From a virus: DNA of 26,858 bases. Both the position numbers and the translations under genes were made by a program. Below the pieces are notes generated by a model. It searched no databases. It saw only the letters and a list, made by a program, of their open reading frames with translations, and was not told the origin of the DNA. Shown here piece by piece: positions 2,768 to 24,972 of this stretch. How positions within the stretch are numbered: position 1 is the stretch's first letter; every line of letters starts with the position of its first letter. The stretch lies in IMG/VR virus record IMGVR_UViG_3300028025_004371, positions 1 to 26,858 of that record; one strand, given 5' to 3'.

Positions 2768-4576
2768 ATGAAGCAGAAGCCCCAAAAATCTCGCGTCGTC
2801 CAACTAACGCGAGGACCAATCGAGACGTATGGCATCAAGTTTGATCATCAATTCGGCAATCAACTGGATGTCGAGTTGATCTTCCTCAAGTGTCCAACGG
2901 GTTCGTTATTCGGTTGGAAAGGCGATAAAAACCCACAAGGAAAGCCTGCGTGGATTCATTTCGTCAACGCGGTGAACCTCATCTGGAACTATCCAGGAAG
3001 TAGAACTCCGTTCATGTGGCATCCTTGGGCGATCAAGATGGCAAAAGCCGCATTTGAGAATAAGCGTCTCGCGATCTCATCCGGTGGTTCTGGCGGCAAG
3101 ACTGGTTTGTTCGCCGTTTACTGTCTCGTTTGGTGGTTGGCAAATCCATACAAGAACGTCGTTCTCGTCAACACCACGACCATCAAGGACTCGATGGGGC
3201 GTATCTGGGGCCAGATTACTCGTTACTTCAATGGCATGGCTGGAGCACCTCCTGGCAAGTTGGTTGAGTCTTCTCACTGCATTAAGTCGATGGACTTGAA
3301 CACTGGCGTTGTAATGGATGAATATGGCATTCGACTGTTTCCAGGTGAGCAAAGCAAAGCCGCTGAATCCTCACGCGCCATTCGAGGTCAGAAGCATGGT
3401 CCTGGCGGTAAGCTCATTGTTGTTCTGGACGAGTGCGCTGAACTTTCGCCATCCATCATCAATACGTTCGAGGAAAACTTGACCCAGAATCCAAATGTCC
3501 AGCTTATCGCGCTAGCCAACGCCAATTCGCCATTCGATACCTTTGGGCAGCTTTGTGAGCCTATTCCTGGAGGATGGGACAGCTACAACCCAGATTGGGA
3601 TGAATGGAAAGGGAAGGGCGCTCACGTCATCCGCATCAATAACGAAACATCGCCAAACATCATTGAGGGTAAAACGATCTACCCGTTCTTGATGACTCGT
3701 GAGATGTTGGAAGAAAAGCGAGAAAAGCTAGGCCAGCATACGCGAGCTTACTGGCGAGGTGTCCTTGGTGCGTTCCTTCTTGATGGAGACGATGACAATA
3801 TTTATTCGCCAGCTGAAATCATTAAGACGCCCAAGGATTGCGTGTGGCAGGGGATTCCAACAAAGGTATGCGGCATCGACCTTTCATATACCAGTGGTGG
3901 CGACAAAACGGTGATGACGATTGGCTCTATTGGCATCTGCACTGATGGCAAGAAACGACTCAAGTTTGAGCGCCATATCCTTCTCAATGACGATGCCAGC
4001 AAACGCGATGTTGACCGCACTACGCAGCTTATTGAGCAGATTAAAGACATCTGTAAGAAAGACGGAATCGACATCAAGGATGTGGCAATTGATGCGTCTG
4101 CTGGTGGTGGCAAAACTTTTGCTGACGCCATGTGGAGCAAGTGGGGGAATACCTTCTTGCGTGTGGACTTCGGTGGCAAGGCTTCGGATCGTCCTGTGTC
4201 TGCTGCGGATCGTGAGAAATCGAGTGTAAGGTATGCTAACAGAGTTAGCGAACTTTGGGGCTGTGGCAAAGAACTGATTCGTTGCGATCAGTTACGCAAC
4301 ATCACAAAGGAGATGGCTGACGAGATGACTGTTCGTAAGTATAAAGACAACAAGGCACTTGATGGAGGATCACGCATCAAGGTTGAGTCCAAAGTCGATA
4401 TGAAGCGCAGAACAGGTAAGTCGCCGGACGTTTATGACAGCGCCTGCGTTCTTATTGAGCTTTGCCGTGAGAAACATGGACTCTCAAGTATCGACAAGCC
4501 GGGAAATCACAATCCCGGCAAACCAAATCCATTGCAGAAGAGATTCAAGCAGTTGGCTGGCCTGTGGGCTGCTTAA
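2768..4576 (+). CDS. terL: Terminase large subunit (ATPase and nuclease)
   Basis: The motor of DNA packaging: it cuts the concatemer and pumps DNA into the prohead at the portal. At 602 residues it is somewhat long for the family. The N-terminal ATPase has a Walker A-type motif SGGSGGKT (105-112), Walker B VVLDE (218-222) and the coupling motif ALANAN (about 248-253). The RNase H-fold nuclease has acidic residues in the expected order: GIDLSY (Asp371), AIDASAGGG (Asp442) and SPDVYDS (Asp554/Asp557). No small terminase is recognised nearby. The ATG at 2768 has no Shine-Dalgarno sequence. The stop TAA shares a palindromic TTAA with the convergent thyX stop. Portal and capsid genes are not next to it, which is unusual for a compact head module. 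Confidence 0.93.
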   Translation: MKQKPQKSRVVQLTRGPIETYGIKFDHQFGNQLDVELIFLKCPTGSLFGWKGDKNPQGKPAWIHFVNAVNLIWNYPGSRTPFMWHPWAIKMAKAAFENKRLAISSGGSGGKTGLFAVYCLVWWLANPYKNVVLVNTTTIKDSMGRIWGQITRYFNGMAGAPPGKLVESSHCIKSMDLNTGVVMDEYGIRLFPGEQSKAAESSRAIRGQKHGPGGKLIVVLDECAELSPSIINTFEENLTQNPNVQLIALANANSPFDTFGQLCEPIPGGWDSYNPDWDEWKGKGAHVIRINNETSPNIIEGKTIYPFLMTREMLEEKREKLGQHTRAYWRGVLGAFLLDGDDDNIYSPAEIIKTPKDCVWQGIPTKVCGIDLSYTSGGDKTVMTIGSIGICTDGKKRLKFERHILLNDDASKRDVDRTTQLIEQIKDICKKDGIDIKDVAIDASAGGGKTFADAMWSKWGNTFLRVDFGGKASDRPVSAADREKSSVRYANRVSELWGCGKELIRCDQLRNITKEMADEMTVRKYKDNKALDGGSRIKVESKVDMKRRTGKSPDVYDSACVLIELCREKHGLSSIDKPGNHNPGKPNPLQKRFKQLAGLWAA

Positions 4577-5262
4577 TATCCAAAAGCCTCAAGCGTGTGC
4601 TTGAAAGGATTGCCTTCGATGTTCTTGACAAGCTCAAGCATAGTAGCAGCAATGTCTCGAATTTCTTTTTGAGCATCTGGCTTGTTACGCAATGCCAAGA
4701 AGTGATGAAAGCTCCGCCAGTTGAACATTACATCGGCTTGAATCTGGCTGTTGTATGACTTGAAGAAGCGAGCACTTTCTTTGGCGCGTTTGCGACCAAG
4801 AATAGGCTCAAGGTCTTTGAGGCAGGCATGGTATAAAGTATTTCCCATTCTTGTATATTCTTCAAGAATATTAGACCATGAATTTTCTGTTGTCGCAATC
4901 GGGCAATCAGAAGAACCCACATCATGAGTTGGGTAAATACCATCCCAATCATCAGGAAGATAATACTTGTCTTCCTTTAGCTCTTTATACCGAGCACTCT
5001 CTCCATTGATTGAAACGCCAATGCGATGCTTGAGCAGATGAATATGGCTAGCAATGTCGCAATCCACAAGAAAGTGAAGACTGCTTTTTTCAAAAGGTGT
5101 ATGGTGACCTGCATCTGCTAGCATTTTTAATAGTTTAGGAATGCGCTCTCGTTTTTCATCTGTGATTTCTCTGCTGGTGCTTGTCCATGCAGAGCAAGCA
5201 TGAATTTCATCGCTGCCGTAATATCCGATCAGTTCTATTTTGTTGTTCATATTGATAATCAA
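4573..5262 (-). CDS. thyX: Flavin-dependent thymidylate synthase ThyX
   Basis: Makes dTMP from dUMP using methylene-tetrahydrofolate, FAD and NADPH; in phages it boosts thymidylate supply for replication. At 229 residues the length is typical. The signature region is KHRIGVSINGESARY (78-92). It corresponds to the family RHRx7S motif but has Lys for the first Arg and one extra residue before the Ser. The C-terminal stretch (RFFKSYNSQIQADVMFNW, then HHFLALRN and AQKEIRDIA) is also ThyX-like. The start is either TTG 5262, which overlaps the regulator's stop as TTGA and has GAAGGTG 8 bases upstream, or ATG 5250. I favour TTG because the same TTGA arrangement recurs at 10147. It is the last gene of the minus-strand cluster. 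Confidence 0.9.
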   Translation of the reverse strand: MIINMNNKIELIGYYGSDEIHACSAWTSTSREITDEKRERIPKLLKMLADAGHHTPFEKSSLHFLVDCDIASHIHLLKHRIGVSINGESARYKELKEDKYYLPDDWDGIYPTHDVGSSDCPIATTENSWSNILEEYTRMGNTLYHACLKDLEPILGRKRAKESARFFKSYNSQIQADVMFNWRSFHHFLALRNKPDAQKEIRDIAATMLELVKNIEGNPFKHTLEAFGY

Positions 5263-5556: not shown

Positions 5557-5733
5557 TTATTTCGCTTTTACGACTTCAACTTTAACGAATGGAAGCATGA
5601 GGACATTGATGGTCTTATTCTTCCCAAGGGTGAATGAGTGCGTCACCGCCTTGAATACAGACTTTTTGAGCATCATGACGCCGTGATAGCGAAAGATTGA
5701 ACCGTTGGCGAGTCGGTAGTAGCGGATCATCAT
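5557..5733 (-). CDS. 58-residue basic protein, unknown
   Basis: A short gene filling the gap between the HNH gene and the helix-turn-helix gene. The start ATG-ATG (5733 or 5730) abuts the HNH stop with no spacer (TAAATGATG), and the frame runs 58 codons to TAA at 5557. The product begins MMIRYYRLANGSIFRYHG, is rich in Lys/Arg and aromatic residues, and ends in VEVVKAK. The pattern is beta-like, with no metal motif or membrane helix. It is not recognised. Its exact fit between neighbours on the same strand is the main evidence that it is real. Confidence 0.5.
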   Translation of the reverse strand: MMIRYYRLANGSIFRYHGVMMLKKSVFKAVTHSFTLGKNKTINVLMLPFVKVEVVKAK

Positions 5734-6540
5734 TTATTCAGTTGGGATACATGGCTTTTTCCATACTAGTGAGACACCATCTAAAAATCGTTGATGCCTT
5801 GCTCTCAAGTTGATTCCATAACAATTTCTAAAACTTTCAACAGTATCAATTATTTTTGGCATGCTTTTAATCCATTCATTCCACTCAAAATTAAACTTGT
5901 TGGCGTTCCATTTACTGTCAGGTTTTGACCCATGTCGATCAATTGGTTTTGTAACTGAGTTAGTTGGACCGATGCCCAATATTAATCGGTAAGATTTTGC
6001 TGTTTTGCCATTCTTTAAAGATCGAAGGCGCATAAGTATTTTTTTATTTCCCTTCTTTCCAAGCGTTTGCCTCAACTCTTTTACAAGAAGATTTATGGTT
6101 CGATTTCTATCCTTGATCGGGACTTTTGGAAGGGCTTGTTGTGCGCTCTCAAATGGGTATAGCGGATCAATCTTCGCTCTGAAATCATGGTACGAGCTTG
6201 GTATAGAATCTGGATGTTCATTGAGAATTGAGTTATTTTTCGCTTTTTTCTTATTGGACTTCTGTTTTCGCTTCTTTTTCAAACCGTGCTCCTCCGCATG
6301 ATGTGCAGAGCACAAAACCTGAAGATCGCTTGTCCGCACATCGTAAATATCTCGGTATCGAATATGGTGAACCTCGATTGACTCTGTTTCTCCGCAAATC
6401 TCACATTTCCTACCAACCTCTCTAAATTTTGCGCTTCTCAATATGCTCCAATGCTCTGATCTCAGGTACACCTTGGCGTACCACTTTTTTTGCGTCAGTC
6501 CGCTCTGTTCAATCTCTAGTTTGTAGGCTGGTTTAATCAT
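5734..6540 (-). CDS. HNH endonuclease family protein
   Basis: A 268-residue protein with an HNH (beta-beta-alpha-metal) nuclease domain near the N-terminus. It shows CEIC (Cys46, Cys49) for structural zinc, EVHHI (His58, His59) as the catalytic histidine region, and LCSAHHAEEH (Cys77, His80, His81) closing the fold. A strongly basic lysine tract follows (about 88-100), which would aid DNA binding. The remaining 165 residues are unassigned and end near a Trp-rich stretch. It could be a free-standing homing endonuclease or a packaging-associated HNH. It is first in the minus-strand cluster, with GGAAAG a few bases before its ATG. The upstream region is an unusually structured intergenic stretch. 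Confidence 0.8.
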   Translation of the reverse strand: MIKPAYKLEIEQSGLTQKKWYAKVYLRSEHWSILRSAKFREVGRKCEICGETESIEVHHIRYRDIYDVRTSDLQVLCSAHHAEEHGLKKKRKQKSNKKKAKNNSILNEHPDSIPSSYHDFRAKIDPLYPFESAQQALPKVPIKDRNRTINLLVKELRQTLGKKGNKKILMRLRSLKNGKTAKSYRLILGIGPTNSVTKPIDRHGSKPDSKWNANKFNFEWNEWIKSMPKIIDTVESFRNCYGINLRARHQRFLDGVSLVWKKPCIPTE

Positions 6541-6571
6541 TTACTTTCCAACGGGCTTAATTCGTTTCGAT

Positions 6572-6608
6572 GCACTAACAGACCCCGGCTAAGGAAGTCT
6601 GTTAGTGC
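6572..6608. repeat. Perfect 12-bp inverted repeat (hairpin)
   Basis: GCACTAACAGAC at 6572-6583 and its exact reverse complement GTCTGTTAGTGC at 6597-6608 flank a 13-base loop. It lies 32 bases upstream of the HNH gene, so in the minus direction it would form in that gene's 5' leader. No T-run follows on either side, which argues against a standard terminator. Confidence 0.7.
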
Positions 6609-6679
6609 TTTAGTGAGACTTTCCACGCGGGAATCATCGCCCTTCAACACTTCGGTTTCCCGAATCCGGCACGTCCAGC

Positions 6680-6702
6680 GGTCACCTGACCTAGACTAGT
6701 CT
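6680..6702. repeat. Adjacent dyads GGTCA-CC-TGACC and AGACTAGTCT
   Basis: Two perfect dyads lie almost back to back: a 5+5 repeat at 6680-6691 and a 10-base palindrome at 6693-6702. These are the size of protein-binding sites more than RNA stems, and could be operators within the divergent region. Confidence 0.4.
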
Positions 6703-6810
6703 TCTTTCGTGGACTCCGGCAGACTCCATTGCTGGAATGCATTAAGCCAGTCGGTAAGATTGGCCCCGCTCCTTCACATATAGGCTCGTCAAAACAAACG
6801 GTTTCCTACT

Positions 6811-6845
6811 GTTACACGCCAGTTTTTGAAAAACTGGTAACTTTT
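6811..6845 (+). terminator. Stem-loop followed by CTTTT (weak terminator-like)
   Basis: CCAGTTTTT at 6819-6827 pairs with AAAAACTGG at 6829-6837 (effective stem about 7 with a small loop). It is extended by GTTA/TAAC at 6811-6814 and 6838-6841 and followed by CTTTTA. It would stop plus-strand transcripts entering from the left, or act as 5' leader structure of the structural operon. The T-run is short. Confidence 0.3.
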
Positions 6846-6872
6846 AGTGTGGGGATGCCCACTGTACGCAAA

Positions 6873-6903
6873 GAGGCCGACATCGTGGAGCAATGTCGGC
6901 CTC
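6873..6903. repeat. Perfect 11-bp inverted repeat (hairpin)
   Basis: GAGGCCGACAT at 6873-6883 pairs exactly with ATGTCGGCCTC at 6893-6903 across a 9-base loop. The arm contains an in-frame ATG at 6893 that would lengthen the next gene. A GC-rich stem makes that ATG an unlikely start, so I place the gene start downstream at 7013. Confidence 0.65.
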
Positions 6904-7012
6904 AGTGGCTTGCAATGGGCAGAATGCACTGCTCCACAGCGCAAACCAGATTGAATTCGATCTAACCATAATCCCACTTGCATCATTCCGTCAAGCGGAT
7001 ATGGTAAAAAAT

Positions 7013-7777
7013 ATGGCTTCAGACGTTTATCTCTTCCGAAAAGACCGCCGCTGGCAGAAATTCTCGAAAATTGATGAGATTATTCTGACTGGAGTGCAAG
7101 CAGTTTACCAAGGTGTTACTGGTTCAAATTCATCGGATCAACTGACAATCGCCAGCAACAGGCTATTTAACGGAGATGCGGTTTATTTCCAAGCGATCAC
7201 TGGAGGTTCCGCTTTGGCAGTCAACGTTACCTATTACGTCATCAACAAGAGTGGAAACACCTTCCAACTTGCATCCACAGTAGGAGGCTCTGCGCTGAAC
7301 CTTGGCTCGGATATAACAGCGGGCACTCTTGTTCAAACGCAGCCAGAAATGAATATCTGGTCTAGCGAATATCGAGATCTGTTTGATACTTCAACATCTC
7401 TTTTTTCAGCGCCAGGTAGTTTGACGGTTACCCCTCCAGCTGAAGGTGGTTCAATCACAACAATAACTTCGGTTAATTCTGAAAAATTGGCATTTAAGGC
7501 TGGCTTGATTCCAGTTGATCCACTTACTGTACAGACTGTAAATGGAACTTATTCCTCAACTGCTAGTTTAGTAACATACGGCACGAACGTAAGCGTTATT
7601 CCATCATCTGTCACTTCAACCACCAGCGATGAAGTGTCGCATACTGATCTTCGCCAATCCGTTCTCAAGAAAACCCATTGGAGATTCCGTCAGGCTAATA
7701 GCGCCACACCAACATATTTGTATGCCACATGGGCAGATGGCGATCAAATCTCCAATGAACCACCTGAAACGGTCTAA
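7013..7777 (+). CDS. Putative virion (tail-type) structural protein
   Basis: First gene of the plus-strand structural operon. Residues 29-100 (positions on the 254-residue product) look like a compact beta module seen in many phage structural proteins, with the pattern LFNGDAVYFQAITGG then TYYVINKSGNTFQLA. The rest is Ser/Thr/Val-rich beta sequence ending in a Trp-containing C-terminus. Start choice: ATG 7013 follows the leader taaaaaat and gives MASDVYLF. The same leader precedes the gene at 12919, and the next gene also begins MAS. ATG 7001 and 6893 are in frame, but 6893 lies in a hairpin. Stop TAA overlaps the next ATG as TAATG. The exact virion role is unknown. Confidence 0.6.
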   Translation: MASDVYLFRKDRRWQKFSKIDEIILTGVQAVYQGVTGSNSSDQLTIASNRLFNGDAVYFQAITGGSALAVNVTYYVINKSGNTFQLASTVGGSALNLGSDITAGTLVQTQPEMNIWSSEYRDLFDTSTSLFSAPGSLTVTPPAEGGSITTITSVNSEKLAFKAGLIPVDPLTVQTVNGTYSSTASLVTYGTNVSVIPSSVTSTTSDEVSHTDLRQSVLKKTHWRFRQANSATPTYLYATWADGDQISNEPPETV

Positions 7778-8622
7778 TGGCTAGCAATTTCCAACTGTTA
7801 CCGACTCCGCATGAAGAGGAGTTTATGTTCTCTGTGCGAGTTCCACAGGATTACATCGGTCCTGAATTGGTGTTTCCAGATGGATCGACGCTGATTTCGG
7901 CCCAAAGCGCCTCACTTGCTGGTGTGCGCCCAACATCATTCAAGCAGTGTGGGTGGACAGTTGGACGCGAGATGCTTTCAAAGTTCCCTGCTTACGGTGA
8001 CTATGTTTACCTGAAGTCTGAAAAACCTGATGCTGACCATATCACGTTGTTTTTTGGTAGAGCAAGGACTCCAGCGCAACGCAGAGTTCCGTTTAATTTC
8101 TACTACGACACAAGGCAATACACTTGGCCTTCTGTGCTTGAAGACTTGTTCGCAGCTAGAGCAGTTGGATTCCCGCAAGTGGTGAACAATGGAGCAAATA
8201 CAGAGACGGCTGATAGGCTTCTGCCAAGGTATCGTTATCGTCCTGGAATCTCGTATAATAGCACTATCTTGGTTGAGCAGTTCTTGTCTGATGTGGCCTA
8301 TTCTGCTGGTGAATTAACCCACATCCAGCCTGTTCCAACAGATGTTGATGGTAATTACATTGGTTTGAGCATGAAATTTGAGCGTTGCTTGCATCCAACC
8401 TGCGTGTTTCCAAAGGTTCAGCCAGAAACGCCAGTTTTAGGTGTCGGCGTATATCCAGCGCCCACAAATCGTAATTCTTTTACGCAGATTTTTCCAGCGA
8501 CAAATTTCCTAGATTGGGCACCGTTCATCATTGAGGACCGCCAACAGAACACTAACGGTCTTTGGTTGAGGGAGCGGATCACGATCTATCCCCCACCACC
8601 TCCAGACGATGTGATCCAATGA
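7777..8622 (+). CDS. Hypothetical virion-associated protein, 281 aa
   Basis: Not recognised by family. A soluble protein rich in Pro, Phe and Tyr with beta-like texture (EEFMFSVRVPQDYIGPELVF; HITLFFGRARTP; FNFYYDTRQYTWPS) and a C-terminal polyproline stretch (IYPPPPPDDVIQ). It has no membrane helix or signal peptide. It is coupled at both ends: TAATG with the gene before and ATGA with the mucin-like protein after. Its place between two structural-type genes suggests a baseplate, tail or fibre-connecting role, which is inferred only from context. Confidence 0.55.
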   Translation: MASNFQLLPTPHEEEFMFSVRVPQDYIGPELVFPDGSTLISAQSASLAGVRPTSFKQCGWTVGREMLSKFPAYGDYVYLKSEKPDADHITLFFGRARTPAQRRVPFNFYYDTRQYTWPSVLEDLFAARAVGFPQVVNNGANTETADRLLPRYRYRPGISYNSTILVEQFLSDVAYSAGELTHIQPVPTDVDGNYIGLSMKFERCLHPTCVFPKVQPETPVLGVGVYPAPTNRNSFTQIFPATNFLDWAPFIIEDRQQNTNGLWLRERITIYPPPPPDDVIQ

Positions 8623-9233
8623 TTAATACTGGAAACGGAGAATTTGCATCTGAGAACGGCCCATTTGCTCAACGTAATTGGGTATGGGGAATGTCTGGAA
8701 TTGGCTCGAATGTGAGCCGTGACGGAACCTCAACGGTGATTGCTAATCTGCCAAGGTCGAATGTGCAGATGGATAGTATCAATAACTCAGGTCCACCATT
8801 TGCTGCCGGATCAAATATTCAGCTATCTGGAACTTTTGTTGGAGGGGTATTTACTGGCAGCGTTCTTTTTGTTGGCCCTGGAACTCCGCCAACGACTTCG
8901 ACAACGACTACGCCTCCACCAACTTCGACGACTTCAAGTACAACCTCTTCAACGACCAGTTCGACGACCAGTTCGACGACCAGTTCGACGACCAGTTCGA
9001 CGACCAGTTCGACGACCAGTTCGACGACCAGTTCGACGACGAGTAGCACAACATCTTCGACGACAAGTTCTACGACTTCAAGCAGCACGACTTCAAGCTC
9101 GACCACAACTACTGCGCCACCGACGACGACGAGTTCGACTACAAGTAGTTCAACTTCAACGAGTTCCACCTCTACAAGTTCAACATCGACGACTCAGCCA
9201 CCGTTGACGACGACGACAACGCCGCCGCCATGA
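8619..9233 (+). CDS. Mucin-like Ser/Thr/Pro-tailed virion protein
   Basis: A 204-residue protein in two parts. Residues 1-88 are a globular-looking Gly/Asn/Ser-rich domain (MINTGNGEFASENG; FAAGSNIQLSGTFVGG) typical of small phage tail or decoration pieces. From residue about 90 to the end it is almost only Ser and Thr with Pro at each end, including many STTS units and a PPLTTTTTPPP terminus. That composition is like mucin or O-glycosylated stalk regions. I start it at ATG 8619, overlapping the previous TGA; the frame is open further upstream but only inside the preceding gene. It is followed without a gap by two glycosyltransferases and a methyltransferase, which suggests the tail is a glycosylation substrate. 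Confidence 0.65.
   Translation: MINTGNGEFASENGPFAQRNWVWGMSGIGSNVSRDGTSTVIANLPRSNVQMDSINNSGPPFAAGSNIQLSGTFVGGVFTGSVLFVGPGTPPTTSTTTTPPPTSTTSSTTSSTTSSTTSSTTSSTTSSTTSSTTSSTTSSTTSSTTSSTTSSTTSSSTTSSSTTTTAPPTTTSSTTSSSTSTSSTSTSSTSTTQPPLTTTTTPPP
8949..9044 (+). repeat. 12-base in-frame tandem repeat (STTS units)
   Basis: Six perfect copies of TCGACGACCAGT at 8961-9032, with one-mismatch copies at 8949-8960 and 9033-9044, so eight units. Each encodes Ser-Thr-Thr-Ser. Because the unit is four codons, slippage would lengthen or shorten the protein tail without breaking the frame. Confidence 0.9.
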
Positions 9234-15297: not shown

Positions 15298-18200
15298 ATG
15301 CCAAAATGGGATGAAATTACCGTAACCGACGAATATAAGAGCCTTCCACCGCAGGCTCAAGCCGAAGTCAAAACAGAATGGTTTAAAGCCAATCTTTTAC
15401 CTGAAGTTGAGAAGCTCGACTCCTTGAGAGAAATGGGCGCTGATAAGGTTTACGAGTGGTTTATGCAGCAGCCAGACGACACTGGCGAAGGCATTGTTCG
15501 CTCCACACTCGGAAGTGCTATCCGTGGATTCGGTGAAATTGTTCCAGGCACATTGGAGGGTGTTGGCGCTTTGACTGGCATCACACCTATCAGCGATCTT
15601 GGCGAATCTGCTCGCGAAGGGCTGGAATACATCGCGCCAGTCAATCCAATTTACGAGCAAGGCATTCCTGCCAAAGTGGCAAATGTGGCTGGTAATGTGG
15701 CTAGCATCATTGGCACAAGTGGCGTTGGTGGACTTGTTGGTAAAGCTCTAGGATCTGGACGTGCCGCCACTGCTGGTTCTGCTGCCGCTAGGCAAGCTCT
15801 CACAAATCAAGCCATTCAAGCTGGTGCTAAATCTGCCCTATACGGCACAGGGTTTGCTCAAGGCGCTGCTGCTAAAGCTGCCGAAAATGAGCGTCTTGGC
15901 ATCACTGGAGTTGGTGGATACATGAATCTCCTTGGTGGTGGCGCATCTGAATTGCTGCCAGAACTACTACCGTTCGGTTCCGCGCTCGAAACGTCTGCCG
16001 CCCGTCGCCTCCTTGGTGGCGTTGATGATGCCGCTGGCAGAGTAATTCCAGGTATCCGCATGAGTGCAGCCCAAGAAGCTGCTGAAGGCGGTTCCACGCA
16101 AGTTCTCAGCAATCTCTCAACTCAGCTTACCGCACCCACTGGCGTTGAAGCTCCAGGTTTGTTTGAGGGCGCTGGTGAAGCTGCTCTTTGGGAGGGCGTT
16201 GGTGGCGCAATGTTTGGCGCGATCAACAAGCTAGGTCGAACACCTCCAGAGAGACAGACGGCTGAACAAAAAGCATACGCGGCAGAGTTGGGAGCGATTC
16301 CTGTTAATAGCAAGCCACCTATCACACCTGAAGAAAGCCTTGAAAACTTCAATCAAGGTGGAATTCCAGTGGTGTCTCTAGATGGGGCAGTCACAACACT
16401 CCCATTCAATCGTGATGATATTCGGGCAACCAATCTGCCGTTTAATCGCGATGACATCAGGGCCACTGATCTCCCTTTCAGTCGAGAAGATATTCGGCCT
16501 ACGCAGTTGCCATTCAATCGTGAAGACATTCGAGCCACGGAGCTTCCATTTTCTCGCCAAAATATTCGAGGCTTATCACAACTAGGACAGTCAGTTCCTT
16601 CGCCAAGCCAAGTCATCGCTGACACGCTCTTGACCAATGCAGTCAACGTCTCATCTGATGCTACGAAGGCCACAGAAGCCGCGCTTGCAGTTGTGCAAGG
16701 CGTTGCAGCTACTACGCCCGTTGAGTTGCCAGTTCCAACTGTTGCTCCTACCGTAGAAACACCTTCCGTTAAAGACCTTGTGGATGCAGGCATGCCTCAA
16801 GATGAAGCTGCCGCAGAACGCCAAGCGCAATTGGAAGCGACCACTCCCAAGCGCCCTTTGACGGACCTTACCGACGAAGAGCTTGAACAGCGGATTCAAG
16901 ACTCAAGCCGCTTAGCTAATGAAACCGCTGTGGAGGGGAGTCCAGACGCTGCTTTCTTTACCAACGCCGCTGAAAAGTATCGTGCCGAGAAAGCCCGAAG
17001 GGTCGCGGCTACTACGCAGGCGGCAGCACCTGCCCCCGCAACCGAAGCCCCTCCAATCACTCCTACCCAGGAGACGCCGACGCCCGCTACCGAAGGCACG
17101 GTCATGCCGGGAGGCAGCGCCATGGAGCGGGATGTGACGAAGCCGGAGCAGATGACTCCTGGGGAGGTATTCGACTCATTTAATAAATCACCTTCACCGA
17201 GTGAACTCGCAAGACTTGCGCTTGAGACTAAGGGCGATGTTGGGAGAGTGCATCCAGACGCCTCAGGTAGCGCTATTCGGCTTGCTAAAGACGCCCTGAA
17301 AGAGATAGAAAATATTCCCTCAAAAGATGTTGAGCTGTTTGTGAATGGGGCATCGGACACTGCTGTTTTTTCCAAAATGATATACCGCGCCCGGCATCGC
17401 GTCGGACAAAAAGGTGGTAAGGCGGCATTAGTTCGAGCTTTGAGTCGCATAAGCGATACAGACCCATTGGATTTGATGGAGCGAATTGCTTCAAATCGTG
17501 AACTTACCGAGATAATCAACCCAATCAATATTGCACTTGCGGCTAAGAAACCCGTCTCCGCCGCCGCTGTTGACGCCTACGGCATCCCCCTTCCATCAGG
17601 CTACGTCAAGCAAGGCGACCTCTATGTGTTTCAGCCTGAACCATCCCCCCAAACCACAACGGTAGCCACACCAACAGAAACCGCCGCTCCCTTGGCTAAG
17701 GAAGCGGCGGTAGCCAGTGTTGTTCAACAACCAGCAGAGGGGTCGATCCCTGCTGTTGAGCAAGAATCTGCTACAACTGCCATAGAGTCAAACGAAAAAG
17801 CGGACATTGCAGATGCCGCAATGGCGTTCTTGGAAGAAGATTTGACCGAGAGCAAAAGGCAATGGAGTCCAGAAAAAATCGCTGCCGCAAAAGCCTACTT
17901 CGCTAGCGGTGGCAAAGACATGGATGTGCTTCGTGCTGCATTTCCAAAACTAGTTGGCTCTCGTCCGATTGTTCAAGCCTATCTCAAGGCTGATAAGGAG
18001 GCGTCAGAAGCTCAAGCTAAGCGTGATGCAGCCGATGCCAAGCTCGCCAAAGAAATCGAGCGTGACGAGAAGGAGCAAGCCAAAGCAGAAGCCGCACAAA
18101 AGAAGCGCGAAGAGCTAAACCTCAAAACGCTCAACTCGCTCATTCAGAAAACGCGCACGAACGTCGTTCAAGGCACCGTCAAGGCAACTGACGCCAATCA

Positions 18201-21200
18201 AGCTGTCGCGATTCTCAATCGTTCTGGCGAGATTCCAAATGTGCTCTTCACCTGGATTGGCACCTCAAAGGACTTCCTTGCTGATCCAGCTAATCGCGTT
18301 CGTTATCCTGAGACTTGGGCAGCAGTAAGCGCCAACTCAAAAATCGAAGGCATGTCTGAAAATGGACAGCCGATTGTCTTCACTGATAACGTAGGTGTAT
18401 CCGATCTTGATCGCAAGCTAGCCAATCTCCAAGGCACTACGCCTGAAGTAGCGGCGGTTCGTCGCGTCATTCTTCATGAGAACATCCACAAGGGAATGTT
18501 CTTCTTGTCGATGAAGGAGAAGATGCAGGTCTTCTCGTTCCTTCGCCGGATGTATTCTCCACAGGAGCTTGATTCGCTTGCTGAATCCTACAGCGAGTAT
18601 GCAGACTGGCGCACGAATCAGGTGAGCTACTTCAGCATCCTTGAAGAAGCGATGACTCGCGACTTCGACTCGATGGTTGAAATTCCGCGTGATGGCATTT
18701 GGGCAGAGTTCATGCAATTCCTGCGTGGCATCTGGCAGAAGATCACGGGCAAGACGAGCGAGCCTACGCTGAAGGACTACAAGGACGTTTTCCGCCTGAT
18801 TCGCAATAGCTTGAAGAACTCGGAGAAGGCTAATGCTGACATGCTGGTGAATGGTGGTGGCGTGCGGATTGGCATTGCATCCAAGGTCGAATACGACTCA
18901 CCCAACGATGCCGCATTCAACAGTGGCGCTGAAGTAGCTCGCAACACTGACTACGACGAACGCGACAAGGAAGTGCGTTCTACTATTCGTGCAGCATACG
19001 ATATTGCTCCGAAGACAAATGGCCCATCGGTGCCGCTAGACGAGCTTTTCAGCATCGTGAAGCAGTCGATGCCTGATCTGACGGAAACCGAGTTCAGCCG
19101 CATCCTGCAAGGGCTGTATGAGGACAGTGGGGCGCTGTTGATTGAAGGCGAATCTCCATTTGCCACCTTTACCACCGAAGGCGAACGCGCTGGTTCTGCG
19201 ATTATCATGCCGCCTACCGACATGACTAAGGATGATGTCATTTCCATGCTTCGTGGTATGTCTGCTGCGAATCCGGCTCCATCTGGAGAAATCAACCAAG
19301 AATTATATGATACAGTACTTACTCAACTCAGGAATTTTATATCAAATGGAGGGAGAGTCCCTTTACCAATTCAATCATACGGCGCTACTAAAGCCGGTAG
19401 ATATAATTACACCCGGCAGAAGGACGGACTTGAAAGAGATTTACGACAAGGTTCTGGAATTGGCAGGCCTGGACAGATTGATACCGGGGCTCCATTCCGA
19501 GATAAAGTCGAAAGAGAGAATCTTGAAATTCAAAGAATCGACTCAGAAGTTTCTAGAAATCGTGAGACAACTACAGAAGGAAGGGAAAATCGAAAAAGGG
19601 AAGCCGGGGCCAGACCTAATGTGGGAATGGCAGGTAGTGGCTACACTTTTGCCGATTATGCTCAAATTGCGTCCAGAATTGGAGCAAGAGTTCAGGAAGT
19701 TTCTAACGACATCGGAGGTGGACTGGCTGCTATGGCGGATGGAAATGGGGCCACAACCATCCTCATCAATGCCACACAACTTGGTAAAAGGGTGGCTGGA
19801 ACTAGCTTCGGCCTAGATGAAGACGGAGCTATTGAAACTATTGGTAATGCTTTGGTAGAGGAACTGATTCATGCGGCTGATCTTGCAGTTCAACGTGAGG
19901 CATGGATTGCCAGCGGAAGGCGTAAGCCGTTTACTGAATTTGCTACCAACAGCGACAAATCCATGTTGGACGAAATGAGGGAGGTTGTGGCATCGAGTAA
20001 CGATCCAGTAAAAGCAACGCAGATACTTCACGATGCCATTCAAGCATCTCGCCAACTTTACGAAAGTGGAGCCGCGCCAAGTGATATTGATAAGTTTTTT
20101 GCATCGGAGCCTAGAGCTATCAGTTCAGTGATGTCCGAGTTTGTGCGCCAGATGATTCAGCAAGACATGCACCAAACGGTTTCGGAAGCATCGCTATTCC
20201 GCCGCTTCATTGAGCGCGTGATGAAAATGCTACAAAAGATTCGTGATGCCATCGCTCCTGCAAAGGCTGGCGAGTTTGGCGATATTCTCAAGAATCGTAT
20301 CAACGAGACTGAAATGATGCTGGCGATGGCTTATCAGCAGACTGGCGCAAGGGCATCTATGATTGATCCTGAAGACGCTGCAACCAAGCAGTTCGCGAAG
20401 AATATTAAGGACATCAACAGTGGCACAGCTAAGGCTCCGTTTGGAGGCGTTCAGTTCACAAACTTCAAGCCCATTGATCGCGAGGTCAAATCTGCTGAAG
20501 AATACAGCGATAATGCCATCAAATACGTCAACAACCTTGAGAAGGAAGGCGTTTCGCTTGATGATATTGCGAACTCAGTCATCTCGCCAGCATTCCTTGA
20601 AAGCATCGGTATTGAGCAAGACTTGATGGCCCAAGACGCTCTCACTATCGAAGTCCGTCAACGTGTGGACAACGCTGCACGCGAGGAAAAGTCTCCAGGA
20701 AGAAAGAAGCAACTATCCAAACTTAGCGAGCGCCTGTCTGCATTCTGGCAAGGAGTAGGAAGTAAGAAAGGTCAACACCTTGGGCAACGGCGCTATCTTG
20801 TAAACAAAGCTCGTTATAGCTGGATGTTCATTCGTGAAATCGCAGAGAAAGCGATGAAGGAGGCTAGAACTAATATCCTTATTTCCAACTTCGGAAGCGA
20901 GAACGCGACTAGCTTCACTCAGAACAGCTATGCCGATTCTGATAAGGCCAATCAGCAGGCGGTGGATGAGAATATAAATGCTGCTGAGGAAGCTCAGGAG
21001 TTTGATCAAGATGCAGCAGATTTGGCGGCAGGCGAAGCTACGTTGACTGGCGCATTTTTGAAGCTCTATGAAGATCTAAAAGACTTACTAAGGCAGAATG
21101 GCTTGATTGCTAAAGCAAGAGCTTCACGGGTAGCAAATGCAGCCAAGGCATCCATCTCTGATACTGAGAGAAACGCCATTATGTCCATGTCGGACGCTGA

Positions 21201-24200
21201 ATTGAATGCGCTTGAGTCCAAGAATAATAAGCGCATTGGAGAAATCCTCAATACCCTACTTGGCAAGGAAGAAGCAGCGGACACAACTGAGAAAAAGACT
21301 GTTCGCAAGAAACGCGAGAAGATGGTTGAGGTCGTTAGAAAGCGCCTTGAACAAGGCAAGACTATTGATTTCTCCAAGCAAATTGACAGTCTTTTCACAA
21401 CTGAGAATCCACAACGCGATGAGATTATTGACGATGTTTCTAATGCTTTGTTACAAGCGGCAAAGAAGCGCGGAGTCAAGCCTTCTCAAAAGACCGCATT
21501 GGCAGACCTAGTTGCAAGTATTAAATCTTTACTCAAGGCTAATATCAAAGGTGAGGATTTGAAAGCTGACGAAGCGCCATTGGGTCAATTGCTGGCGAGG
21601 ACATATCTAGACAACCTCACGGCAACTGAAGCTAAGTTGTTTACTGAAAGCTGGAATGATGGACGTAAAAAGGTTCGTGCTATGCTTACAGAGATGGGTG
21701 TTGAAGGCAATCAACTTGAGGCTGAACTGAATGCCATCATGCCAGCAACTCCAACGATTGCATACAATCCATCGGCAGTTCGCAAGGCAATCACACGCGC
21801 ATTGCGTGAAGCCGGTCTTGATGCCAATGATCTTTTGGCTAACACTCAGTCAGTTAAATCTGAAATCCTCAAAGTGTGGGATAATGCCGCTGTTGATGCT
21901 GGATTAACACCTTCTGTTTGGCAAGAAGGGCGCAAACTTGCTGAGAAGTCGATTGATGAGTTTGTTATTGAGCGGAAAGCATCCAAGGAGAAAGCCAAGC
22001 AAATTGCCAAAGTGGTATCTGATCAGGCTAACAATCCAGTGTCGCTAGCTGATTTCAGCAACTCACTGTCTCAATTCAAACTCAATGATAGCAAGGTTAA
22101 AGAGCTTTTCGACAAAGCTAAAGTTCTTGCGAATAAGAAAGTTCAAATTGCCAATGACAGGGCTATTCGAGTTCTTTTTGAAGCAGAGAATAATCTAGCT
22201 CAAAGCGCATTCTTTAATTCCACTACCAAGCCAGACACCATTGTTAAGGCTTTCCGCGAGCAAGTGAGTGATCCAATGAGCCGTCAGGATTTCAAGGCTC
22301 GCATGGACGCAATGAAAGTCAGTGGAGAATTGGCTGACAGGCTTTTTGACAAGGCTGCTCGTGAGAAAGACAACGCACAGTGGAAGCGTGCTCAAGACAT
22401 GCTCGAAGGGCCAAATGCTCTGCGTAACATTCTTCGCGAAATCAATCGCGCACGTCCAGGTGAGCAAGCGCCATTGTCCAAACAAATCCCTTGGCGTCAG
22501 CTTCTCTCGCAAAGCGCAAAGACAGTCGAAGAATACCGCCAGCGTATCTTCGATGCCATCTCTGCCAACGAAGAACTCAAGAACGCAACGCCAGAGCAAA
22601 AGGCACGTCTTGCAGACCTATTCGCTGAAGCATGGGAATCCAATCGCACTCGTATCCTGGATGGTATGCTTGAGCGCATGATTCGCGCAGAAGAGGCCAA
22701 GAAGAATCTCAGCAAAGAAGGCGCTAAAGCTCTTCAAGCGCAACGGATGCGTATCGTTGAGGACATCAACCTTGGCATCTTCGATAACGATGAACTGGCA
22801 AAGCGCATGGCAGAGAAATTCGGCATTAAATCCGAGTTCACCGAGACTGAGCGCGAGAAGATCAATTCACTTATTGAGGTTCTTCAAGACGAAGAATTGA
22901 ACGCTGTGAAGCGCCAAGTTGCTGCCTACAAGCTACTTGAGGTGCTGCAAGGCGAACTCAAGATTCCAGTGGCAAAGATGCTCGCTGACTTCTGGGTTTC
23001 CAGTGTGCTCTCTGGTCCAAATACTATCGTCTCAATTGGTCTTGCTGTTGCCAGCGGTGCATTCGAGCTTTCCACGGCATTGTCTCGCGTGTTCATCGCT
23101 GGATTCACCAATCCAAAGCAGCTTCCATCTGAGCTTGCTGGTGCATACAAAACGCTCGCTAGACTACTTAGTGCTTATGGTCGTCAGGCAAACATCGCGT
23201 GGCAATACCTTGTGAGTGGTGATCCAGTGTTTCTTGATCCATCTATGAACGATGTGACCGAGAACATGCAGTGGGGCAATATCGGTAAGAGCAACAAGTT
23301 GGCAGAACAAATGGCGAAGTCTGACAAGATTCTCGTCAAGAGCGCAGGCTTGTTTATGCGGACAGTTAGCCGTTTGCTGACTGCTCTCGACGTATTCAAT
23401 AGTGGACTCACCAAGGAAGGCTCGCTTTCCATCGTATTCCGCCAGATTGGACTCGATCCTGAAAAGATCGCAGCACTTGAGAAGAAGTCTGATTTGAAGC
23501 CTTACAAGGAAGCCATTATTCAGAAAGACTTCGGCGGAACACCTCCCAAGTCTGCACGCGACAAGGCTATTCTTGATTCCTACGCTCTGGCCGACATGAT
23601 GGCAGAACTGGATAAACTTGGCAACGTGTCCGAGAACGCCAACTTCTTCGGTCAACAAGGTGCCATGACGCTTGATCCATCTGGACTTGGTGGTGTCGGC
23701 TATCGTGCGATCAGATCGCTTGTGACCAATGCTGAAGCGGGTGCTGATAGATTCCTGAAACAAGCTCAACGCGGATGGAATGATTCAGCACAGAATGGCG
23801 ATAGGATTCTTTCTGGACTTGAGTTGGCATTCGCCTACTTCATGCAGTTCGCTGCTTACAATGCAGCTAACTTTGGCGGTGTTCGCTTCGCACGTTTCGC
23901 TGGCAACAAATTCAACCAAGGTCTGAGCTTCATTCCAGGCATTGGTTTCGCTCGCGCATTTGAGGCTGAATTTGATCCTAATCGCATCAGTGGAAAAGAA
24001 GCATTCATCGACTCAATTCGGCGCAATCAGCTTATTGGAGTGATGCTATCCGTTGCTGGCTATCAAATCCTGAAAGCCATCGCAGACGAGCCGGATGACG
24101 AAAAGCGCGGTTGGTTCATCAATGGTGGCTGGGGTAACCTAACGCCTGAGAAGAAGCAGCAAAAGCTGGCCGCTGGCGAGAAGGAGTACACTATCGGCAT

Positions 24201-24972
24201 CAATGGCAAGGTGTTCAATTACGCCAACTGGCCTATTTCATCTGCGCTTGCAGCTATCGGAAGCCTTTCTGATCTGATCCGCTTCTCGCCAGATCAATGG
24301 AACGACAAAAACGTGGCTCAAATTATGGCAAGTGCCGCAATGTCTGGCGCTGCTGCTGCTGCTGACATTCCTGCTCTTTCCCAGTTCCAAGAGCTATTCG
24401 GCAACAGCTTGTCCAGCAAAGACCCCAACGAGAAGCGCATGGAGCGTTTTGCCAAGGTGATGTCAAGCTACGCTGGTGGCTTCGTTCCTCGATTCTTGAA
24501 GGACATCGACTACGCGCAAGATCCAAATCTGCGTAAATACGAAACACTGTGGGAGAAAACAGCCTCGCACATCCCTGTTTATCGTCGTTACGAAGGCAAG
24601 GAGTACTACGACATCTTGGGCCAGCAAATCCAACGCAATGTGTATCCTGGAAGCCGCGAGTTCATGGTGAAGCCAACCGATCCGGCCTACAAGGTTCTCG
24701 GCGCTCTCAATTCCCGTGGAATTTGGCTGACTCCTGCCAATGCCGAACACCGCATGGTTGGCAAGGGCGCTCGTCGTCGCTCTCTCACGCAAGAAGAAGC
24801 TGACAACTACAGCCTTGAAACCGGCAAAGGATACAAGCAGATGCTTCTGCGATACGGCCAGCGTGCGCTCCAGATGCCCACAGAACGCGCTAGAGCATTC
24901 TTGTTGGACAAAGCTGACGAAGTGCGCGACAGGGCGCTAAAGAAGGTCTATAGGGGCTATCAACCTGCATGA
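15298..24972 (+). CDS. Giant (3224 aa) large-polyvalent-type virion protein
   Basis: One uninterrupted 9.7-kb gene. In order: an acidic start; a Gly/Ala-rich hydrophobic region (about 125-300) that could insert in membranes; five 12-residue repeats (368-427); an Ala/Pro/Thr linker (about 570-602); a charged coiled coil (about 895-945); HExxH as HENIH at 1060-1064 (RVILHENIHKGM), a zincin-type site; EELIH at 1521-1525, a degenerate second site; long helical charged stretches (1800-2500); LADFWVSSVLSGPNTIVSIG near 2560-2580, a pattern seen in large polyvalent phage proteins; and late hydrophobic helices (about 2840-2930). Such proteins are thought to enter the host with the DNA, bringing enzymes. 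ATG 15298 follows a 36-base gap; its TGA overlaps the next start. Confidence 0.8.
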   Translation: MPKWDEITVTDEYKSLPPQAQAEVKTEWFKANLLPEVEKLDSLREMGADKVYEWFMQQPDDTGEGIVRSTLGSAIRGFGEIVPGTLEGVGALTGITPISDLGESAREGLEYIAPVNPIYEQGIPAKVANVAGNVASIIGTSGVGGLVGKALGSGRAATAGSAAARQALTNQAIQAGAKSALYGTGFAQGAAAKAAENERLGITGVGGYMNLLGGGASELLPELLPFGSALETSAARRLLGGVDDAAGRVIPGIRMSAAQEAAEGGSTQVLSNLSTQLTAPTGVEAPGLFEGAGEAALWEGVGGAMFGAINKLGRTPPERQTAEQKAYAAELGAIPVNSKPPITPEESLENFNQGGIPVVSLDGAVTTLPFNRDDIRATNLPFNRDDIRATDLPFSREDIRPTQLPFNREDIRATELPFSRQNIRGLSQLGQSVPSPSQVIADTLLTNAVNVSSDATKATEAALAVVQGVAATTPVELPVPTVAPTVETPSVKDLVDAGMPQDEAAAERQAQLEATTPKRPLTDLTDEELEQRIQDSSRLANETAVEGSPDAAFFTNAAEKYRAEKARRVAATTQAAAPAPATEAPPITPTQETPTPATEGTVMPGGSAMERDVTKPEQMTPGEVFDSFNKSPSPSELARLALETKGDVGRVHPDASGSAIRLAKDALKEIENIPSKDVELFVNGASDTAVFSKMIYRARHRVGQKGGKAALVRALSRISDTDPLDLMERIASNRELTEIINPINIALAAKKPVSAAAVDAYGIPLPSGYVKQGDLYVFQPEPSPQTTTVATPTETAAPLAKEAAVASVVQQPAEGSIPAVEQESATTAIESNEKADIADAAMAFLEEDLTESKRQWSPEKIAAAKAYFASGGKDMDVLRAAFPKLVGSRPIVQAYLKADKEASEAQAKRDAADAKLAKEIERDEKEQAKAEAAQKKREELNLKTLNSLIQKTRTNVVQGTVKATDANQAVAILNRSGEIPNVLFTWIGTSKDFLADPANRVRYPETWAAVSANSKIEGMSENGQPIVFTDNVGVSDLDRKLANLQGTTPEVAAVRRVILHENIHKGMFFLSMKEKMQVFSFLRRMYSPQELDSLAESYSEYADWRTNQVSYFSILEEAMTRDFDSMVEIPRDGIWAEFMQFLRGIWQKITGKTSEPTLKDYKDVFRLIRNSLKNSEKANADMLVNGGGVRIGIASKVEYDSPNDAAFNSGAEVARNTDYDERDKEVRSTIRAAYDIAPKTNGPSVPLDELFSIVKQSMPDLTETEFSRILQGLYEDSGALLIEGESPFATFTTEGERAGSAIIMPPTDMTKDDVISMLRGMSAANPAPSGEINQELYDTVLTQLRNFISNGGRVPLPIQSYGATKAGRYNYTRQKDGLERDLRQGSGIGRPGQIDTGAPFRDKVERENLEIQRIDSEVSRNRETTTEGRENRKREAGARPNVGMAGSGYTFADYAQIASRIGARVQEVSNDIGGGLAAMADGNGATTILINATQLGKRVAGTSFGLDEDGAIETIGNALVEELIHAADLAVQREAWIASGRRKPFTEFATNSDKSMLDEMREVVASSNDPVKATQILHDAIQASRQLYESGAAPSDIDKFFASEPRAISSVMSEFVRQMIQQDMHQTVSEASLFRRFIERVMKMLQKIRDAIAPAKAGEFGDILKNRINETEMMLAMAYQQTGARASMIDPEDAATKQFAKNIKDINSGTAKAPFGGVQFTNFKPIDREVKSAEEYSDNAIKYVNNLEKEGVSLDDIANSVISPAFLESIGIEQDLMAQDALTIEVRQRVDNAAREEKSPGRKKQLSKLSERLSAFWQGVGSKKGQHLGQRRYLVNKARYSWMFIREIAEKAMKEARTNILISNFGSENATSFTQNSYADSDKANQQAVDENINAAEEAQEFDQDAADLAAGEATLTGAFLKLYEDLKDLLRQNGLIAKARASRVANAAKASISDTERNAIMSMSDAELNALESKNNKRIGEILNTLLGKEEAADTTEKKTVRKKREKMVEVVRKRLEQGKTIDFSKQIDSLFTTENPQRDEIIDDVSNALLQAAKKRGVKPSQKTALADLVASIKSLLKANIKGEDLKADEAPLGQLLARTYLDNLTATEAKLFTESWNDGRKKVRAMLTEMGVEGNQLEAELNAIMPATPTIAYNPSAVRKAITRALREAGLDANDLLANTQSVKSEILKVWDNAAVDAGLTPSVWQEGRKLAEKSIDEFVIERKASKEKAKQIAKVVSDQANNPVSLADFSNSLSQFKLNDSKVKELFDKAKVLANKKVQIANDRAIRVLFEAENNLAQSAFFNSTTKPDTIVKAFREQVSDPMSRQDFKARMDAMKVSGELADRLFDKAAREKDNAQWKRAQDMLEGPNALRNILREINRARPGEQAPLSKQIPWRQLLSQSAKTVEEYRQRIFDAISANEELKNATPEQKARLADLFAEAWESNRTRILDGMLERMIRAEEAKKNLSKEGAKALQAQRMRIVEDINLGIFDNDELAKRMAEKFGIKSEFTETEREKINSLIEVLQDEELNAVKRQVAAYKLLEVLQGELKIPVAKMLADFWVSSVLSGPNTIVSIGLAVASGAFELSTALSRVFIAGFTNPKQLPSELAGAYKTLARLLSAYGRQANIAWQYLVSGDPVFLDPSMNDVTENMQWGNIGKSNKLAEQMAKSDKILVKSAGLFMRTVSRLLTALDVFNSGLTKEGSLSIVFRQIGLDPEKIAALEKKSDLKPYKEAIIQKDFGGTPPKSARDKAILDSYALADMMAELDKLGNVSENANFFGQQGAMTLDPSGLGGVGYRAIRSLVTNAEAGADRFLKQAQRGWNDSAQNGDRILSGLELAFAYFMQFAAYNAANFGGVRFARFAGNKFNQGLSFIPGIGFARAFEAEFDPNRISGKEAFIDSIRRNQLIGVMLSVAGYQILKAIADEPDDEKRGWFINGGWGNLTPEKKQQKLAAGEKEYTIGINGKVFNYANWPISSALAAIGSLSDLIRFSPDQWNDKNVAQIMASAAMSGAAAAADIPALSQFQELFGNSLSSKDPNEKRMERFAKVMSSYAGGFVPRFLKDIDYAQDPNLRKYETLWEKTASHIPVYRRYEGKEYYDILGQQIQRNVYPGSREFMVKPTDPAYKVLGALNSRGIWLTPANAEHRMVGKGARRRSLTQEEADNYSLETGKGYKQMLLRYGQRALQMPTERARAFLLDKADEVRDRALKKVYRGYQPA
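16399..16578 (+). repeat. Five tandem 36-base (12-residue) repeats in the giant gene
   Basis: Residues 368-427 of the giant protein form five successive units of the pattern LPF(N/S)R(D/E)DIRAT plus one variable residue. Units four and earlier keep LPF and R..IR; the fifth diverges (LPFSRQNIRGLS). The DNA copies differ at many third positions, so the protein pattern is being kept by selection rather than being a recent duplication. Confidence 0.88.
19232..19816 (+). CDS. Possible overlapping frame inside the giant gene (unproven)
   Basis: A 194-codon open frame, +1 relative to the giant gene, which is long for a chance frame. From about codon 53 it reads like a helical, Leu/Glu/Lys-rich protein: TPGRRTDLKEIYDKVLELAG, KFLEIVRQLQKEGKIEKG, LLPIMLKLRPELEQEF, SEVDWLLWRMEMG. 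It has five tryptophans and uses AAG, GAG and CTG freely. A more likely start would be ATG 19346 (MEGESLYQF). The giant frame in the same stretch uses mostly AGA/AGG arginine codons, unlike its flanks. It may be an overprinted gene, a relic of an inserted domain, or chance. No clear ribosome site is seen. Confidence 0.2.
   Translation: MMSFPCFVVCLLRIRLHLEKSTKNYMIQYLLNSGILYQMEGESLYQFNHTALLKPVDIITPGRRTDLKEIYDKVLELAGLDRLIPGLHSEIKSKERILKFKESTQKFLEIVRQLQKEGKIEKGKPGPDLMWEWQVVATLLPIMLKLRPELEQEFRKFLTTSEVDWLLWRMEMGPQPSSSMPHNLVKGWLELASA

Follow-up and report, generated by a model that had tools for sequence, protein, structure and literature searches.

A candidate family of large phage noncoding RNAs with a covarying 5' module, often located next to an HNH or similar nuclease gene

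What is encoded in the hairpin-rich region at 6541-7012 of the virus record IMGVR_UViG_3300028025_004371 (the window, i.e., the whole analysed stretch of 26,858 nucleotides)? The gap is flanked by an ORF for a 268-aa HNH endonuclease on the minus strand (5734-6540; PHROG HNH families, best E 6.4e-11; Pfam matches only below cut-off) and by a divergent structural ORF on the plus strand (7013-7777; weak PHROG tail fibre match, E 1.4e-7), for which homologues were found and whose start at 7013 is conserved among relatives. The leftward gene group continues from the HNH gene with a 58-aa ORF (5557-5733, minus), an HTH gene and, behind the latter, a ThyX-type thymidylate synthase gene (4573-5262, minus; Pfam Thy1, E 8.2e-32). 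Further ORFs of the window encode a probable low-complexity tail or surface protein with a long Thr/Ser-rich repeat run (TSSTTSSTT...; 8562-9233, plus), a protein of 3224 aa (15298-24972, plus) without Pfam matches in its first 734 aa (E up to 0.01), and a protein with a PAPS-reductase domain (25308-26177, minus; PF01507, E 1.6e-19), possibly representing a DNA-modification or sulfur gene.

The first-pass annotation had described the region as hairpin-dense, with at least seven dyads including two with perfect arms of 11-12 bases. The two perfect repeats were retrieved (12/12 and 11/11, both local). The inverted-repeat listing for 6400-7100 does yield seven pairs, but this count is generous, since in three of them the arms are separated by 169-502 nt and may be chance; the four local pairs have arms of 12/12, 11/11, 10/11 and 9/9. 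A search for perfect inverted repeats (arms of 9 or more, spacers of up to 60) gave three, with arms of 12, 11 and 9, compared to a mean of 0.07 and a maximum of one in 100 shuffles of the gap. The fold z of the gap is -6.14 on the plus and -5.78 on the minus strand, with none of 100 shuffles being equally stable on either strand, and by raw fold energy the region ranks second (minus) and fifth (plus) among 113 windows compared. The region is not the only long non-coding stretch, as had been assumed, since the gene list contains a longer gap at 2051-2767 (717 nt). The latter harbours small ORFs on both strands (e.g., 2242-2466 and 2507-2716 on the minus strand), displays 85.6-98.4 % identity among the 40 database matches listed, is not unusually folded (z -0.67) and is taken to consist of putative small genes.

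Comparison with relatives suggests that the minus strand of the gap is likely the gene for a folded RNA of ~410 bases (6541-6953), with its inferred ends at the first conserved base (6953) and at the base before the HNH start codon (6541), as derived from comparison of alleles. IMG/VR contigs were searched for relatives with the products of the HNH, structural and terminase genes and with a structural-protein profile. From the 58-aa ORF to the structural gene these relatives carry different alleles, 20 distinct sequences in all, which measure 426 to 1388 nt when cargo genes are counted in. A conserved 5' module of two types (A and B, see below) is present in all seven close-relative alleles among those listed (L028, L060, L025, L026, L011, L014 and L017). 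Among 24 further structural-gene relatives listed, 18 begin with a type A or B module behind a promoter-like site, and six have no module there (L073, L074, L075, L083, L086 and L103). The pattern matches L110, L119, L121, L126, L132 and L162 were dropped as lacking a module, and a chance match (L070 plus) was left out of the fold and 3' hairpin tests. The RNA adjoins structural genes of different phage groups, either alone or followed by HNH or other genes. In cultured phages, blastn returned no match for 5700-8600 of the window or for four RNA alleles, and the terminase retrieved one distant record (22 % identity). The structural-protein profile had no match in cellular genomes, and the type A pattern matched only two chance-like stretches (L153, L154) in 84,980 of them, in which no P2 hairpin was visible by eye. 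None of the published titles and abstracts searched describes the RNA; their coverage was partial, so absence from print is not established.

The type A module of the window (6866-6953, minus) was delineated by alignment A2, pair counts and a covariance model. It is composed of stem P1 (6947-6941 with 6913-6907; pair counts in A2), a small inner hairpin, stem P2 (6903-6893 with 6883-6873; perfect 11 bp, from inverted repeat and pair counts) and a pseudoknot of eight Watson-Crick pairs (6937-6930, GTGGAGCA, with 6892-6885, TGCTCCAC; from knot comparison and inverted repeat), in which the P2 loop pairs with a strand inside P1. The knot is apparent from an inverted repeat (I4, 6885-6895 with 6927-6937) interleaving with the hairpin at 6873-6903. 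Type A modules start with CAAATAGGTTT (CAATCTGGTTT in the window) and type B modules with CAGCTTGAAA; both share the same layout, i.e., P1, the small inner hairpin around GAGCRAUC, and P2 with its knotting loop. The type A set contains 17 distinct sequences (19 motif matches, of which L059 and L085 plus strand were dropped as chance) and the type B set 13. The search patterns contained the module start, GAGYRATC and the U-run; the knot was not part of them.

All 17 type A modules form at least six contiguous Watson-Crick knot pairs (at least seven in 14), with the knot strand 16-18 nt from the module start and with 12 different strings in about nine sequence classes. Swapping partners between classes retains at least six pairs in 11 of 244 cases and at least seven in eight of 244, and shuffled loops reach six pairs in 2.8 %. 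The 13 type B modules all form at least seven pairs; here, swapped partners reach seven in none of 102 cases, but six in 30 of 102, and shuffled loops reach seven in 1.9 %. Across the 17 modules of alignment A2, 17 of 27 pairs show changes on both sides (57 cells; shuffles, mean 16.2, none of 500 as high). The A2 cells are paired to 88.1 %, compared to 30-57 % when the partners are slid by 1-3 columns (six versions), although this figure leans towards structure because the structure was drawn from the same sequences. In the knot columns 75 % of the cells are paired, probably an undercount, since MAFFT sets the knot one column off in several A2 rows. When RNAalifold was applied to A2 without a given structure, it recovered P2, in which 10 of 14 pairs have changed on both sides, and did not predict P1. 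The P1 and P2 cells of the 17 modules contain 23 G-U/U-G versus two A-C/C-A combinations, therefore the minus strand is taken as the RNA strand. The first 100 nt have fold z values of -2.9 to -7.8 in all 26 RNAs tested. The proposal of a structured RNA is thereby backed by covariation in relatives. Poor conservation and missing covariation, named beforehand as findings that would refute the first-pass interpretation, were not observed for the first ~90 nt of the RNA; covariation of the remaining body is weak.

Covariance model R1 was run on 50 phage records (14 of them fetched by the module pattern, the count being no frequency) and matched 30 of them at E up to 1, 27 strongly and three weakly (G008, G009 and G039). 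The module of the window scores 69.1 bits, the window itself being a member of the model. Two matches lay outside the model and had not been fetched by module, namely in G005 (63.9 bits) and in a second copy of G026 (28 bits); both possess new knots, GTGAGGCG/CGCCTCAC (8 pairs) and CTGCTAG/CTAGCAG (7 pairs), respectively. This second copy of G026 has no body and is positioned ~25 nt ahead of a 240-aa ORF. Two module copies per record are present in G026 (36583-36674 and 16670-16760) and G030 (388-479 and 37726-37817), with knot sequences differing between the copies in either record; in G030, one knot is readable by its 5' strand only, its loop being masked. Type B is hardly detected by R1, as of 12 records with the type B pattern only G039 matches (E 0.19).

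Directly ahead of the RNA, a promoter-like site is located on the minus strand (TTGACG-18-TATGGT, 6965-6994; 9 of 12 consensus matches). Since one such site in the window region is no better than shuffles (0.9 on average), the case for this promoter rests on its recurrence in relatives: 18 of 33 distinct sequences upstream of modules score at least 9/12, compared to 2.2 % of random positions, and 12 of 33 score below 8/12, among them the L105 group (6/12). Many of these 33 sequences are related by descent, and one (L070 plus) is a chance motif match. A second, weaker promoter-like site on the plus strand (TTGCAT 6978-6983, TATGGT 7000-7005; read by eye) stands before the structural gene, such that sites in both directions overlap within 50 bp (6963-7012). 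According to alignment with relatives, this stretch is conserved with mostly 94-100 % identity (L017 90 %; L025/L045 82 % over 39 nt), and outside of it the intergenic region is often unalignable between relatives. A late-promoter/operator complex, as envisaged earlier for the entire region, is accordingly supported to some degree at the right edge only, by overlapping promoter-like sites recurring in relatives.

The bodies following the module fall into eleven groups by blastn among 27 RNAs. The groups of L028, L105 and L107 have some 50-60 nt next to the module in common, the window-type body shares 73-74 % identity over 185-197 nt with the body behind the type B module in L087, and L028 and L060 possess a common body (97 % over 542 nt) behind different modules. 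By sequence comparison, body blocks thus recombine and are exchanged between phages. Body folds are modest (mean z -1.24, complement -0.94; all 26 negative, four of 26 at or below -2). In an alignment of five type B bodies, both sides have changed in 14 of 106 pairs, but the covariation term is slightly unfavourable (+0.32). Alignment A5 should not be relied on across the 5' module, L087 being of type B. In the window, the body contains a perfect 9-bp hairpin with a 1-nt spacer (6819-6837, minus; inverted repeat, with a terminator-like score on the plus strand) and, near its 3' end, a perfect 12-bp hairpin followed by a GTGCATC end (6569-6608, minus; 6608-6597 with 6583-6572, inverted repeat). 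Counting near-duplicates, 15 of 28 RNAs carry a 3' hairpin with UAUGCCC, UGUGCCC, UAUGCUC, UGUGCUC or GUGCAUC behind it, compared to a mean of 0.25 and at most 2 in shuffled controls and none in the reversed complement; as the motif was defined only once the sequences had been inspected, this count is a description rather than a test. The body of L181 (record of L091) matches the tRNA model with 33.9 bits (family cut-off 29) and carries a 49-nt insert, a domain that neither ARAGORN nor the fast Rfam scan reported. By eye, the L025 body also shows a string resembling a hammerhead, which was put down to chance. Coding capacity is not apparent: in at least 25 of 27 stretches comprising the first 380 nt, no sense ORF exceeds the 95th percentile of their own shuffles (L134 does exceed it; the sense ORF of L144 has 69 aa, with a shuffle threshold of 76), and the RNAs share no long ORF.

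An HNH or similar nuclease gene often lies at the 3' end of the RNA. A match to the HNH protein was found in 15 of 45 records, and in 11 of these 15 it resides on the module strand within ~1.1 kb behind the module (G005, G007, G010, G011, G013, G014, G019, G021, G037, G041 and G047; with like alleles in G013/G014 and in G011/G019, the latter pair matching via the C-terminal part only). L085 contains an HNH homologue in the same place (35 % identical). HNH gene and RNA together are 97.5 % identical between the window and L042, compared to 83-89 % for the neighbouring stretches. The C-terminally matching protein, of 242 aa (L107; 9438-10166, plus), shares 41 % identity over 73 aa with the C-terminus of the HNH protein of the window, and its N-terminal part has PHROG matches labelled HNH, homing and intron-encoded nuclease; it has no Pfam match, and with no HNH motif visible it is presumably another nuclease fold. 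The two proteins give the impression of a single targeting domain combined with two kinds of nuclease. In L014, the HNH slot behind the RNA is occupied by an RNA-ligase gene (1836-2651, minus; Pfam RNA_ligase, E 6.5e-19), and elsewhere by other small ORFs or just by the 58-aa ORF, which directly follows the RNA in the HNH-less alleles L028 and L060. The contigs of L105, L108 and L122 encode T7-like portal, tail and major head families; here, the RNA is read against the direction of the structural genes and lies between a PHROG 3742/458 gene and the head gene. It is followed by a same-strand 112-aa ORF in L108/L109 and by a convergent gene in L105 and L122. No same-strand gene stands behind the RNA in these two, therefore it would be more than a leader there.

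No catalogued RNA family fits the region. With cmscan at E up to 10, the region gave a single Rfam match (Hrs10, 13.8 bits versus a cut-off of 108) taken as chance, and 20 related RNA regions gave 12 matches, 11 of them far below the cut-offs and likewise taken as chance, with a tRNA as the exception. Group I or II introns, omega RNA, tRNA/tmRNA and other Rfam families were rejected on this basis. The view that tRNAs do not explain the region holds, since ARAGORN found no tRNA gene and Rfam no match at gathering score in the window; ARAGORN called none near the RNA in 16 related loci of 4-9 kb either. The Rfam models of GOLLD and ROOL had no gathering-score match in the window and 16 related loci, and they also stayed without a match when the region and 20 related RNA regions were scanned at E up to 10.

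Taken together, the best reading of these comparisons is a new family of large noncoding RNAs of phages, similar in kind to GOLLD/ROOL. For the window, a minus-strand noncoding RNA of ~410 nt acting in trans with a fixed 5' core is considered the most likely reading and is held with moderate confidence. The predicted knot varies in sequence by allele with its pairing kept, and a promoter-like site recurs just ahead of the module. Host RNA polymerase would transcribe the RNA, which may act in trans as a folded RNA or ribonucleoprotein, with the 5' module forming an invariant core and with a body that would determine what the RNA does. The docked nucleases may be homing endonucleases, with gene conversion spreading and reshuffling the RNA alleles. 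The modest body folds, the unfavourable covariation term of the type B bodies, the failure of RNAalifold to predict P1 on A2, the modules missing in six of the 24 listed relatives, the poor promoter scores of the L105 group and the bodiless module of G026 weigh against the noncoding-RNA reading.

The main and serious rival, which is possible yet clearly less probable, is a cis-acting leader, in which P2 and the U-rich tail form an attenuator and the knot sets read-through into the genes for HNH, the 58-aa ORF, HTH and ThyX; the terminated product of 90-100 nt would then be the main RNA. Such a leader agrees with the minus-strand genes behind the RNA in the window and most loci read, with the bodiless module of G026, which has UUUUUGUUU behind P2 and the 240-aa ORF ~25 nt downstream, and with the 5-8 U in the last 10 nt of all 30 modules, although the U-run was part of the defining patterns. 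However, no terminator was called at P2 in the window, where the tail reads only UUUGCG, a convergent gene follows the RNA in L105 and L122, and the ~300 nt of body separating module and gene are preserved and shared among phages. The trans-acting RNA is favoured because no same-strand gene stands behind the RNA in L105/L122 and because bodies of ~300 nt are retained and exchanged; both functions could hold.

The knot sequences fit a contact within one molecule as well as one between two. One may speculate, with little confidence, that the covarying contact acts at least partly between molecules. A private kissing code of 6-8 nt per allele would then assemble same-allele multimers around an exchangeable body, which is sometimes a tRNA-like domain, a multimerisation likened to that of GOLLD and ROOL; homing endonucleases would shuffle the cassettes, which are perhaps decoy or counter-defence RNAs.

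A mobile intron or other self-splicing element with an endonuclease gene is improbable. The docked HNH and other nuclease genes and the block transfer of HNH gene and RNA are in line with it, and the first-pass annotation had seen traces of a group I intron core, but scanning the region and 20 related ones at E up to 10 detected neither this nor any other intron family, no recognised gene is interrupted, and a promoter-like site directly precedes the RNA. Even less probable is a function at the DNA level, i.e., an operator, packaging or replication site with protein-binding dyads. The overlapping divergent promoter-like sites at 6963-7012 and the nearby terminase gene would suit it, but the wobble changes are strand-specific, and a knot that is interleaved and varies in sequence agrees with an RNA. 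The suggested check of GC skew revealed negative values on both sides of the region without a switch at the site, and nothing pointed to the replication or packaging start proposed before. Hardly credible is a guide function, with the RNA directing the HNH protein as an RNA-guided nuclease in the manner of IscB/omega RNA: a structured RNA directly upstream of an HNH gene, both moving together, is set against a missing Rfam match (HEARO type included, E up to 10, region and 20 related regions), no RuvC-type domain in the 268-aa HNH protein by Pfam at E up to 0.01, RNAs without an HNH gene in L028, L060, L105 and L122, and a 5' end that is conserved rather than a variable guide.

Few families of large structured phage RNAs are known. 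A family with a fixed covarying 5' core, some eleven bodies that replace one another and a recurrent association with nuclease genes would represent a shorter system with core and body separable. If the reading is true, the partner of homing-type endonucleases would here be a noncoding RNA gene instead of an intron or a protein gene.

Several known systems resemble the locus in part. The put antitermination RNA of phage HK022, which lets RNA polymerase pass terminators, forms stem-loops early in the phage transcript, near the promoter; the present RNA differs by its predicted 8-bp interleaved knot, its long body and the missing same-strand gene behind it in L105/L122. Free-standing homing endonucleases of phages are HNH or other nuclease ORFs beside a locus, the neighbourhood of which is transferred; such an enzyme cleaves alleles that lack its gene, which is then copied in. 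Here, it is a putative noncoding RNA gene that stays constant next to the nuclease, and homing would be a conjecture from block transfer and family names. With omega RNA/HEARO and IscB, the locus shares the structured RNA directly upstream of an HNH gene and the block movement, and it differs in having neither an Rfam match nor a RuvC-type domain, and in a 5' end that is conserved instead of variable. The functions of GOLLD and ROOL remain unknown according to PMC12286853. As described there, ROOL is likewise phage-encoded and has many pseudoknots, a highly conserved kissing loop backed by covariation and a variable linker. ROOL measures 659 nt in the solved example and is often found near tRNA islands, whereas no tRNA gene was called in the window or 16 relatives; GOLLD and ROOL form homo-oligomeric RNA-only particles. 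GOLLD, too, is a large structured phage RNA with one conserved end and one less conserved part, sometimes with tRNAs in the variable linker and with kissing contacts (PMC12286853). GOLLD is often longer than 800 nt and has its conserved region at the 3' end, whereas the RNA proposed here comprises ~410 nt and carries its conserved module at the 5' end.
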